Below are positions 23,608 through 26,675 of a stretch of 34,643 nt of DNA, piece after piece (positions within the stretch are counted from its first letter, which is position 1; each line of letters opens with the position of its first letter). The notes below the pieces were generated by a model, which was given only the letters and a program-made list of their open reading frames with translations, was not told the DNA's origin and ran no database searches. Source of the stretch: an uncultured Lachnospiraceae bacterium (GTDB taxonomy: Bacteria; Bacillota; Clostridia; Lachnospirales; Lachnospiraceae); contig CANSTU010000036.1 in the NCBI GenBank assembly GCA_947650005.1, forward strand, positions 1 through 34,643. The letters are read 5' to 3'. A program made the position numbers and the translations under genes.

Positions 23608-23979
23608 TCAATTGTCGTCACAGCCGCAGGACGGTCCGTCGGCAAAGGGCGGGAACGGCCTGGGGAATGGCTGATCCGGTCTGGGACCCGGTTCCGAACA
23701 GGGAGGTTCCGGACGTTTATCCTGGCAAGGGCAGCCCCCATCGCGTTCCGCCCCGGCCCGGCGGATCTCCTCATGTACGTGGCCCATATTCCGCATATCC
23801 GTTCCACATCTGGACGGCTCCTCCCGTCTCGGAGCGCCGCTCCTAGGCGCGATCGGCTCACAGCACGGAGGCGTATTTCTCCTACAGGAACACTCTCCCA
23901 TACATCCGTTGTTCGTTGTGCAGCATTGATTCGACCGGCTGCAGCAGCATAAAAGCAGCAATAAATACAGACAGTTCAT
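23608..23979 (-). CDS. Cysteine-rich small protein of unknown function
   Basis: A 123-residue protein starting MNCLYLLLLLCCCSRSNQCC. A short hydrophobic Leu/Cys run is followed by a Cys-, Arg- and Pro-rich segment (CCEPIAPRSGAPRREEPSRC) and ends with CGCDDN, with about 18 cysteines in all. The run of only about ten hydrophobic residues is short for a membrane segment. I know similar LLLLLCCC openings among unannotated Clostridia proteins but no function. Many cysteines suggest metal binding or a cross-linked spore or envelope component; this is speculation. The frame is open to 24075; AAAGGAG eight bases before the ATG at 23979 decides the start. It is convergent with potD. Confidence 0.6.
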   Translation of the reverse strand: MNCLYLLLLLCCCSRSNQCCTTNNGCMGECSCRRNTPPCCEPIAPRSGAPRREEPSRCGTDMRNMGHVHEEIRRAGAERDGGCPCQDKRPEPPCSEPGPRPDQPFPRPFPPFADGPSCGCDDN

Positions 23980-24040
23980 ATTCTCATCTCCTTTACCATT
24001 ACTATATGTAAAGGAAACGAAATACGTTCCTATCCGCGTC

Positions 24041-24097
24041 AAACGCCGGAAAGGCCTCCCTGGCACAGAGGCCAAGGACCAGGCCTTTCCGGCGTTT
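24041..24097 (-). terminator. Long hairpin after the DUF5662 gene
   Basis: A perfect 17-bp stem (AAACGCCGGAAAGGCCT / AGGCCTTTCCGGCGTTT) with a 23-base loop lies 8 bases after the DUF5662 stop. The stem itself ends in GTTT on the minus strand; the U-run is short. Confidence 0.7.
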
Positions 24098-24105
24098 AAT
24101 AGCAG

Positions 24106-24705
24106 CTACCGCCTCCGCCTTCTCCTGCCCTTTCCAAGAAGTTTTACCCGCACATAGGCAAAAGTGGCCGCCTCTCCTTTTCTGGCAAGCATGGTCAAAA
24201 GCTTCAATAACAGCGCTCTCGTCTTCTCATGCATGATAGGCAGTTCCTTGGAGGAAGTAAAATACAGCAAAGGATCTTCATCCTTGTATGCGCTGCCCCG
24301 GTATACCTTGGAAGCGGCAATTCTGTCCATCAGCATTTCCGCCACGTATTTCACAGGCATCTCCACCGGGGCCATTCCACCGGGCACATCTCTGGTGCTG
24401 TAGTCGATCCAATATTCATAGTGGTGTCTGTTACGGCCCTTATGATGAAGCCACGCGGAGGAATAACCCTTTTCTTCCCGTTCCGCATTGTTTGGGCTCC
24501 GGTCTCCCTGAAAATATTTGGCTCCCATTAGAAATTCTGTTGGTTCATATTTGGACAGATCGTGGGTGAGTCCCTGCTTATATAATCCTACGGCAAAGCA
24601 GCCTTTCATCACCAAATATTTGTGATAGGTAATCGTCTTTAAATGCCTCCATGCCCCGGTAGGTATAATCATGCGCCGGCAGCGGCTTCGTTCTTCTCTT
24701 TTCAC
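24106..24705 (-). CDS. DUF5662 family protein
   Basis: A 199-residue protein of a family common in Clostridia, with no known activity. Diagnostic segments are HLKTITYHKYLVMKGCF, GLTHDLSKYEPTEF, YFQGDRSPNNAEREEKGYS, AWLHHKGRNRHHYEYWIDYS and MPVKYVAEMLMDRIAASKVY. The many conserved His and Asp residues (HDLSKY, HHKGRNRHH) look like a metal-binding HD-type site, but that is inference. It ends in GKGRRRRRR. A GTG start at 24705 overlaps the stop of the GlgX-like gene by four bases; an ATG at 24672 is the alternative, but it lacks a ribosome site. Coupling to the GlgX-like gene suggests a shared role. Confidence 0.8.
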   Translation of the reverse strand: MKREERSRCRRMIIPTGAWRHLKTITYHKYLVMKGCFAVGLYKQGLTHDLSKYEPTEFLMGAKYFQGDRSPNNAEREEKGYSSAWLHHKGRNRHHYEYWIDYSTRDVPGGMAPVEMPVKYVAEMLMDRIAASKVYRGSAYKDEDPLLYFTSSKELPIMHEKTRALLLKLLTMLARKGEAATFAYVRVKLLGKGRRRRRR

Positions 24706-26675
24706 TCTGTTTTCCGTCCTCTTCCCCGATTTTTACGGCCGCGTTTCGCCCCCTTGGAACCTTTTTCCAGGGCCATTCCTTCCAGGATGCAGATCGATCG
24801 TTCCCGCACCGGATATTTTCTGCGGATATCCGTCTCCTGCTCCTCTTCCGAAGCCATCTGTCCGCCTGAAGCAGGCGGAAACCACTCCGCTCCGGCTGCC
24901 GTCGCCGTGTTACAGACCTCCTGCCATTTCATTCCCGCCGGAAGGGCCGGAAGGGCGAATTCATGGGCCTCCCAGTGCATATTATATGCAAGGTAGAGGA
25001 AACTATCGTCTTCCTCCCTGTCCTTTTTCGCATAGCGGCCGCAGTACATCACTCCCGCCTGCCTGCTCAGCCTGTCCGCATCCAGCCGCCAGGCGTCTTT
25101 TCCATGATAGGACAGATCAGGATAACCGTAACCCCTATAATCCAACATGGTAAATTCTTTTTCCTGATGCAGAATGGGATGGCGCTTCCGGAAAGCGATC
25201 GCCTCTTTGACAAAGGCATAGAAGTCTTTGTTCCTTTCCACCAGCCGCCAGTCCAGCCAGCTCACCTCATTGTCCTGGCAGTACGGATTGTTGTTTCCCT
25301 TCCTGCTGAAACCGAATTCGTCTCCGCCAAGGATCATAGGAGTCCCTTGGGCCGTTAAAAGGAGCAGCATAGCATTCTTCATCTGCCTTTTGCGCAGTTC
25401 CAAGATACTCTTTCTCCTCGTCTTCCCCTCGCAGCCGCAATTCCAGCTCACATTATAGGTCTCCCCATCGGAGCCTCCCTCTCCGTTTTCCTCATTGTGT
25501 TTTCTGTCGTAGGACACCAGATCTGCCAGGGTAAAACCACAATAATTGGTAATATAATTGATGACCCCGGCCTGTTCGCCGCTGCGTTTCAGGCTTTCCA
25601 GCGCCGGCGAAAGGGAACCCTCGTCGCTTTTCAGGAAGCGGCGTATCGCGTACAAAAATCCGTCATTGTAGGTTGCCAGATTCTTGTATACAGGAGGCTG
25701 CGAACCATCAAAAATCTCGCGGCAGGGTATATCCTGATAGAAAAGCTTCACATTCCCCAAGATCGGTTCCGTTGCCAAAAGGGCCATAGGAACCTGTGTG
25801 CCCATCAGGTGAAAACCATCCACATGATATTCCAGAACCCAGTGCCTTACCACTTCCAAAATGTATGCCTGCTTCACCTCCATGGGAAAATAGAACTGCA
25901 TGACCACTTCGATCCCCGCCCGATGCAGAGCTTTCACCATATCACGAAATTCCCTGCCTGGGCAACCCGTTGCCGATAGGGACATCTTGGGTGCAAAATA
26001 GTATCCCCGCTTATACCCCCAGTAGTTGATCCGCGGCGTCTCCTCCTCCGGCGGATCCATATAATGGGACAGCGCAGCTTCCATACTGGCCTCCGCCTTA
26101 GGAGGCTTTTCCAGCTCCATAAACTCATAGGAAGGCATCAGCTCCACCGCAGTGATTCCCAGGTCAAGCAAATACGGGATTTTCTCCGCGATCCCTGCAA
26201 AAGTTCCCTTGCACGATACGCCGGAACTGCCATGCCGCGTGAATCCCCGCGGATGGAGCAGATAAAGGACTGTTTCCGCCAGCGGCGTCATCAAAGGCAT
26301 GTCCTCTTCCCAATCGTAGCTCTCTCTCTCTATCCCGCCCTTTAAAAGAGGACTGACTAATTTCCCCCAGCGTTCGTTCCCGTAAACGATCCCTGCATAA
26401 GGATCCGTAACGACCTCGTCCCCTGCATAAAAATTATATTTGAAATCAATTCCCTCCAGTCCGTCCACCTGGAGACAATAAATATTTCCGATCCTTTTGC
26501 CGGTACGAAACGGCAGCCTGATTGGGGCGCCGTGATTTTTCAGATACAGAAGCACGCCGCATTCCTCCAGGGAATGAAGGGCGGCGGCAAAATTCACTTT
26601 CCCGTCGGGCTCAAAGGACGCTCCCATGGGATAAGGCTTTCCGGGAAGGGTTTTTAAATTCTGTCTCGATACCAT
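24702..26675 (-). CDS. GlgX/isoamylase-like GH13 homologue, predicted catalytically dead
   Basis: A 657-residue homologue of glycogen-debranching enzymes (GH13_11). It has an N-terminal CBM48-like domain (residues 15-100), then the barrel with INYWGYKRGYYFAPK. The usual catalytic positions are changed. VDGFRFD reads VDGFHLM, so the nucleophile Asp is Met at about 291. The LIAEPWD acid/base Glu reads LFYQDIP, Gln at about 314. The NHD Asp of the third site reads NYC, Cys at about 379. Region I DVVYNH reads QFYFPM. Neighbouring sequence such as GFTLADLVSYDRKHNEENGE and LTAQGTPMILGGDEFG is well kept, so this is not random decay. It may bind glycogen or regulate, not cleave. It ends in a basic tail. 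The ATG at 26675 has AAAGGAG upstream; the frame is open to 26735. Confidence 0.85.
   Translation of the reverse strand: MVSRQNLKTLPGKPYPMGASFEPDGKVNFAAALHSLEECGVLLYLKNHGAPIRLPFRTGKRIGNIYCLQVDGLEGIDFKYNFYAGDEVVTDPYAGIVYGNERWGKLVSPLLKGGIERESYDWEEDMPLMTPLAETVLYLLHPRGFTRHGSSGVSCKGTFAGIAEKIPYLLDLGITAVELMPSYEFMELEKPPKAEASMEAALSHYMDPPEEETPRINYWGYKRGYYFAPKMSLSATGCPGREFRDMVKALHRAGIEVVMQFYFPMEVKQAYILEVVRHWVLEYHVDGFHLMGTQVPMALLATEPILGNVKLFYQDIPCREIFDGSQPPVYKNLATYNDGFLYAIRRFLKSDEGSLSPALESLKRSGEQAGVINYITNYCGFTLADLVSYDRKHNEENGEGGSDGETYNVSWNCGCEGKTRRKSILELRKRQMKNAMLLLLTAQGTPMILGGDEFGFSRKGNNNPYCQDNEVSWLDWRLVERNKDFYAFVKEAIAFRKRHPILHQEKEFTMLDYRGYGYPDLSYHGKDAWRLDADRLSRQAGVMYCGRYAKKDREEDDSFLYLAYNMHWEAHEFALPALPAGMKWQEVCNTATAAGAEWFPPASGGQMASEEEQETDIRRKYPVRERSICILEGMALEKGSKGAKRGRKNRGRGRKTE

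Follow-up and report, generated by a model that had tools for sequence, protein, structure and literature searches.

The isoamylase fold can outlive its catalytic function in plants, where ISA2 is a dead isoamylase that, according to one review, forms complexes with ISA1 and raises ISA1 activity (PMC12892837). Parts of a second report propose non-catalytic roles for ISA2 and describe its extra N-terminal beta-sandwich domain (PMC12510319). The review also treats BAM4 and BAM9, plant beta-amylases that have glucan-enzyme folds, have lost a catalytic Glu and are proposed to be regulators (PMC12892837). In bacteria, GlgX can itself be a signal receptor, since the Streptomyces venezuelae enzyme is allosterically activated by cyclic di-GMP (c-di-GMP) (PMC9530166). 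Here we describe a GlgX-like protein that has lost its catalytic residues, encoded in a stretch of 34,643 nucleotides (hereafter the window; contig CANSTU010000036.1) from an uncultured member of the Lachnospiraceae, a major family of gut bacteria. Like plant ISA2 it lacks the catalytic residues, the nucleophile included; it differs from ISA2 in being bacterial and, as sampled, confined to the Lachnospiraceae. Our literature searches found no paper on this bacterial dead-GlgX family.

The lost catalytic site

The gene and the parts of it discussed below are as follows, the coordinates of the parts being derived by codon arithmetic from the ATG at 26675:

24702..26675, minus strand (26675-24702): pseudo-GlgX gene, a 657-residue isoamylase-fold protein without catalytic residues
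25878..25901, minus strand: former region I (MQFYFPME, residues 259-266), followed directly by the site of a lost loop of about 44 residues
25803..25811, minus strand: former region II, residues 289-291, where H289 replaces Arg and M291 replaces the nucleophile Asp, with about 14 residues absent after it
25734..25736, minus strand: former region III, where Q314 replaces the acid/base Glu
25539..25544, minus strand: former region IV, where Y378-C379 replace His-Asp
25251..25520, minus strand: segment best conserved across the family, residues 386-475, with HN..N...DG...SWNCG.EG, GDE and GNNNPYCQDN

The open reading frame is unbroken over all 657 residues, and the minus strand before its ATG reads AAAGGAGAACGGTTAGAC, a good ribosome site with AAAGGAG ahead of the start codon. 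Aligned to E. coli GlgX (b3431) and TreX, the protein has M291, Q314 and C379 in place of D336 (nucleophile), E371 (acid/base) and D443 (third Asp) of the E. coli enzyme, while H289 and Y378 occupy the positions of R334 and H442. The D-x-x-x-N-H of region I has become Q260, P264 and M265, with loss of the DVVYNH block. The initial annotation of the window had reported the three replaced carboxylates (Met, Gln, Cys), the missing DVVYNH, the long frame and the ribosome site, and the alignments and the reading frame confirm all of these. The protein thus differs from GlgX, TreX and bacterial isoamylase (GH13_11; TIGR02100) in its carboxylates, Arg, His and region I and by two loop deletions. It matches 4j7r at 249 bits and TreX at 243 bits; against TIGR02100, the GlgX equivalog of NCBIfam, it scores 297.1 bits, below the curated cut-off of 640.9 (18 of the 37 GlgX-bearing genomes described below also have no match above it, and 19 of all 120 genomes do). 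Judged from these replacements, the dead form is predicted no longer to cut alpha-1,6 links.

An AlphaFold2 model of the window protein built with 24 family rows (predicted local distance difference test (pLDDT) 79.0, predicted template modelling score 0.83) has ISA1, GlgX, TreX and ISA2 chains as its best structural matches. The overall GlgX-type fold is present, with an N-terminal sandwich, a (beta/alpha)8 barrel and a C-terminal sandwich. The extra N-terminal beta-sandwich of plant ISA2 is absent: the first strand comprises residues 8-11, and the protein aligns to ISA1 from residue 8 onward. S. venezuelae GlgX has the same fold but is catalytic, and the c-di-GMP motif of its N-terminal domain, ExR(X)6R, is missing in the window protein and occurs in 1 of 125 rows of the clade described next.

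We read the catalytic octet (region I D, N, H; region II R, D; region III E; region IV H, D) in 126 clade rows, the window included, of which 125 were aligned for the deletion spans. None of the octet positions is retained in 43 rows, one in 51, two in 26 and three in 6; of the three carboxylates, none is retained in 79 rows, one in 44, two in 3 and all three in no row. The loss in the window and its 125 relatives goes far beyond what chance would give. The octet is complete in every one of the 29 other GH13 rows (27 of GlgX, including partial rows and genes cut twice, and 2 that are both cut from a further GH13 protein on contig C48 of the window's genome), in nine further GlgX sequences and in E. 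coli GlgX, and no intermediates between the dead and the full octet occur among the rows read. A recent mutation among intact relatives, an alternative named beforehand as fatal to the pseudoenzyme reading, is contradicted by the absence of an intact site from all 126 rows. The two loop deletions, which the initial annotation had not mentioned, are shared by the clade as well. The stretch F263-W279 is 16-17 letters long in each of the 125 clade rows and 61 in all 37 active rows (deletion 1, about 44 residues), and G287-K310 spans 23-24 letters in the 125 clade rows against 36-38 in the 37 active ones (deletion 2, about 14 residues). A rapid maximum-likelihood tree built from 70 rows, which carries no bootstrap, has a long E. 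coli branch and includes no plant sequence, sets the 47 clade rows apart from the rest by one branch (Shimodaira-Hasegawa-like approximate likelihood ratio test 100, length 0.68); L178 and L183, labelled active_other, belong to the Lachnospiraceae too. The dead family is a single clade.

The window's exact substitutions are local. Met occupies the nucleophile column in 18 of 126 rows, Gln the acid/base column in 4 (the window, its 86%-identical sibling L005, L061 and L115) and Cys the third-Asp column in 2 (the window and L005). Checked in relatives, as had been proposed, the loss of the site is clade-wide and the particular residues are not. The replaced columns are not random: the region-I Asp column holds Glu (72), Gln (34) or Asp (13) in 119 of 126 rows, the Arg column is His in 74, and the third-Asp column holds Asn (59) or Asp (26) in 85. 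We note that a shorter subfamily of about 570-630 residues (L145-L156, L119 and L133; for example in genomes G036, G041 and G117) is also shortened near the former acid/base Glu.

Distribution and selection

Among 120 Lachnospiraceae genomes from 119 genera, a profile match was found in 104, and the dead form in 100 once the catalytic columns had been read in the fetched loci (L063 and L089 are counted through the identical frames L048 and L055). Within the window's own genus, 12 of 13 genomes carry the full-length dead form and the thirteenth, G011, has only a 39-residue match. A class-level sample of 293 genomes, searched at E 1e-110, yielded matches in 11 of the 13 Lachnospiraceae members listed. 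At that threshold the dead form is found in none of the 280 other Clostridia genomes (the sole match, in G412, is a GlgX protein whose octet is complete), although distant dead members outside the family could be missed, because divergent dead forms within it score down to about 1e-108. GlgX proper, called at E 1e-70 and at least 335 bits (ten weaker rows sit at dead-form loci), was found in 37 of the 120 Lachnospiraceae genomes; dead GlgX is thus commoner there than live GlgX, 100 against 37.

The dead form is under strong purifying selection, with a ratio of non-synonymous to synonymous substitution rates (dN/dS) of about 0.1. The window protein and its sibling L034 give dN 0.078, dS 0.777 and dN/dS 0.100; across 13 genus pairs the ratio is 0.073-0.165 for the dead form and 0.055-0.138 for GlgX from the same pairs, all such ratios being rough because dS exceeds 1 in many comparisons. 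The proposal that this is a maintained pseudoenzyme is strongly supported by these ratios, by the single old clade without an intact member and by its presence in 100 of 120 genomes. In the catalytic segment, residues 256-385, three dead-form groups have ratios of 0.093, 0.042 and 0.122 against 0.029, 0.022 and 0.019 for GlgX, so that constraint has eased about two- to sixfold and is still strong. In residues 386-475 the corresponding values are 0.060, 0.049 and 0.060 against 0.066, 0.047 and 0.025. Mean pairwise identity across the dead family (1500 sampled pairs) is 0.61 in residues 386-475 and 0.37 in 256-385, against 0.72 and 0.71 in GlgX.

A possible role in glycogen metabolism

In the standard GH13 topology, the loops that follow barrel strands 7 and 8 lie in residues 386-475 and both deletions come behind strands 3 and 4, so that the cleft has lost one of its sides and retained the other. 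The retained half points to binding of glucan and to a part in regulation or scaffolding; the dead form very likely does another job, perhaps gripping glycogen. By analogy with plant ISA2, we tentatively suggest that it binds alpha-glucan and serves glycogen metabolism as a regulator or scaffold without catalysing a reaction, a pseudoenzyme of the GlgX/isoamylase fold that evolved separately; we regard this as plausible, if a little short of an even chance. Its strand 7 and strand 8 loops would still grip an alpha-glucan such as glycogen, the protein would act on glycogen metabolism without catalysis, and the DUF5662 protein encoded next to it would be a candidate but not obligatory partner. 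BAM4 and BAM9 offer a parallel from GH14, a different glycoside hydrolase family from dead GlgX. Should dead GlgX outnumber the live form across the family, Lachnospiraceae genes named debranching enzymes by similarity would be unable to carry out that reaction, and an isoamylase would have been kept for a non-catalytic role in an independent case outside plants; the question posed by ISA2, what a dead isoamylase does, would then become testable in bacteria, including species without live GlgX.

Several observations weigh against this suggestion. Loops 388-420 and 457-470 have pLDDT below 50, so their placement at the cleft is weak in the model, and the most conserved loops are thus those modelled with least confidence. 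All eight catalytic-site positions are replaced in the window protein. Of 24 members, 3 give a CBM_48 match at E 0.001, the window protein not among them; the structural match covers that part. The shift in constraint is uneven, as the Eisenbergiella B group has a lower ratio in residues 256-385 (0.042) than in 386-475 (0.049), and the window and L034 give 0.026 for residues 261-380 and 0.044 for 381-500, the old catalytic segment being the lower. The neighbours of the gene are of housekeeping type (UvrD-like, ABC-F-like, DUF1292-like, gltX-like and luxS-like, named by eye) and form no glycogen operon. Finally, glgA is present in 119 of the 120 Lachnospiraceae genomes and, being near-universal, cannot tie the dead form to glycogen by co-occurrence.

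The nearest neighbour supplies the first alternative:

24106..24705, minus strand: DUF5662 gene, directly downstream of pseudo-GlgX, with a GTG start (an ATG at 24672 is possible); PF18907 at 127 bits, cut-off 27

The barrel might be a scaffold that binds no glucan, a protein-binding module serving chiefly as partner or regulator of DUF5662, with the low-confidence conserved loops folding on a partner. In 53 of the 88 genomes that have both genes, DUF5662 follows the dead gene on the same strand at a distance of no more than 900 bases (fewer than 200 bases between homology ends in 41), and this arrangement is found in several branches of the family. Nevertheless, DUF5662 is present in 103 of the 120 genomes, and the two genes are not significantly associated (both 88, DUF5662 only 15, dead form only 12, neither 5; Fisher p 0.16). 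Moreover, the fetched flanks of 124 loci, which are of unequal length, contain not only DUF5662 (71) but also UvrD-like (43) and ABC-F-like (45) clusters. The link is widespread, loosely kept and not obligatory, and we consider this alternative unlikely. The coupling by a four-base overlap that had been proposed for the window stands in part: the co-directional arrangement recurs, while the 12 and 15 genomes with one gene alone speak against strict coupling, and the overlap itself (GTGA at 24702-24705, given the GTG start) is unproven because translation could equally well begin at the in-frame ATG at 24672.

A rebuilt active site with a different catalytic activity would account for the fact that the old site does not drift freely, as the residue preferences in its columns show, and for the low dN/dS of residues 261-380 between the window and L034. 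Yet at the eight positions the clade rows have no residue of catalytic type in common, and the window itself carries Gln, His and Cys there; only 1 of 126 rows (L154) shows Asp in the nucleophile column, with the rest of that site replaced; and two loops beside the site are deleted. We rate this somewhat less likely still.

The ISA2 precedent with ISA1 in plants (PMC12892837) invites the proposal that the dead form joins the active GlgX of its own genome as a non-catalytic subunit, in heteromers that tune debranching. Consistent with this, 34 of the 37 GlgX-bearing genomes also have the dead form, and the window's genome has a true GlgX C-terminus at a contig edge (G000:C116:2-310), 83% identical to the GlgX of sister genome G007. 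Plant ISA2 works with a catalytic isoamylase; here a GlgX gene is seen in 34 of 100 carriers. Against the proposal stand the 66 carriers that lack a GlgX match at E 1e-70 and an association that is not significant (both 34, dead form only 66, GlgX only 3, neither 17; Fisher p 0.12). The 66 is an upper bound because the window's genome is counted in it despite its GlgX fragment, a contig-edge false negative; 49 of the 66 show a single GlgX-type match with a looser family profile at E 1e-20, and the remaining 17 have two or more matching pieces. Since the dead form occurs in most sampled genera and the live enzyme in a minority of genomes, it is not mainly a GlgX subunit; because most carriers show no GlgX, it would act alone or with partners other than GlgX. 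The subunit proposal is accordingly improbable. We are equally doubtful of a bolder version of our own suggestion, in which the protein would be a lineage-defining glycogen receptor: glucan bound on residues 386-475 would determine how active the DUF5662 protein is, which may be a phosphohydrolase of the HD type, and the status of stored carbon would so be converted into a nucleotide signal. A decaying pseudogene or sequencing artefact, for which we found no point in favour, can be dismissed: 126 rows share the loss in long open frames, the dead form is in 100 of 120 genomes of 119 genera, and dN/dS is about 0.1.

Tails, a fusion and a further reading frame

The C-terminal tail of the window protein (24705..24767) is rich in Lys and Arg. 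Of 125 clade rows, 40 have tails of at least 15 residues, and in 17 of these the net charge is +5 or more; the corresponding counts for GlgX are 1 of 37 and 0 of 37. In L070 (genome G026) the pseudo-GlgX frame continues, in an open reading frame of 813 residues, into a stretch that resembles Ogt/MGMT by eye and contains PCHRV, a single apparent fusion. Directly downstream of DUF5662 in the window lies a cysteine-rich open reading frame of 155 residues (23608..24075, minus strand).
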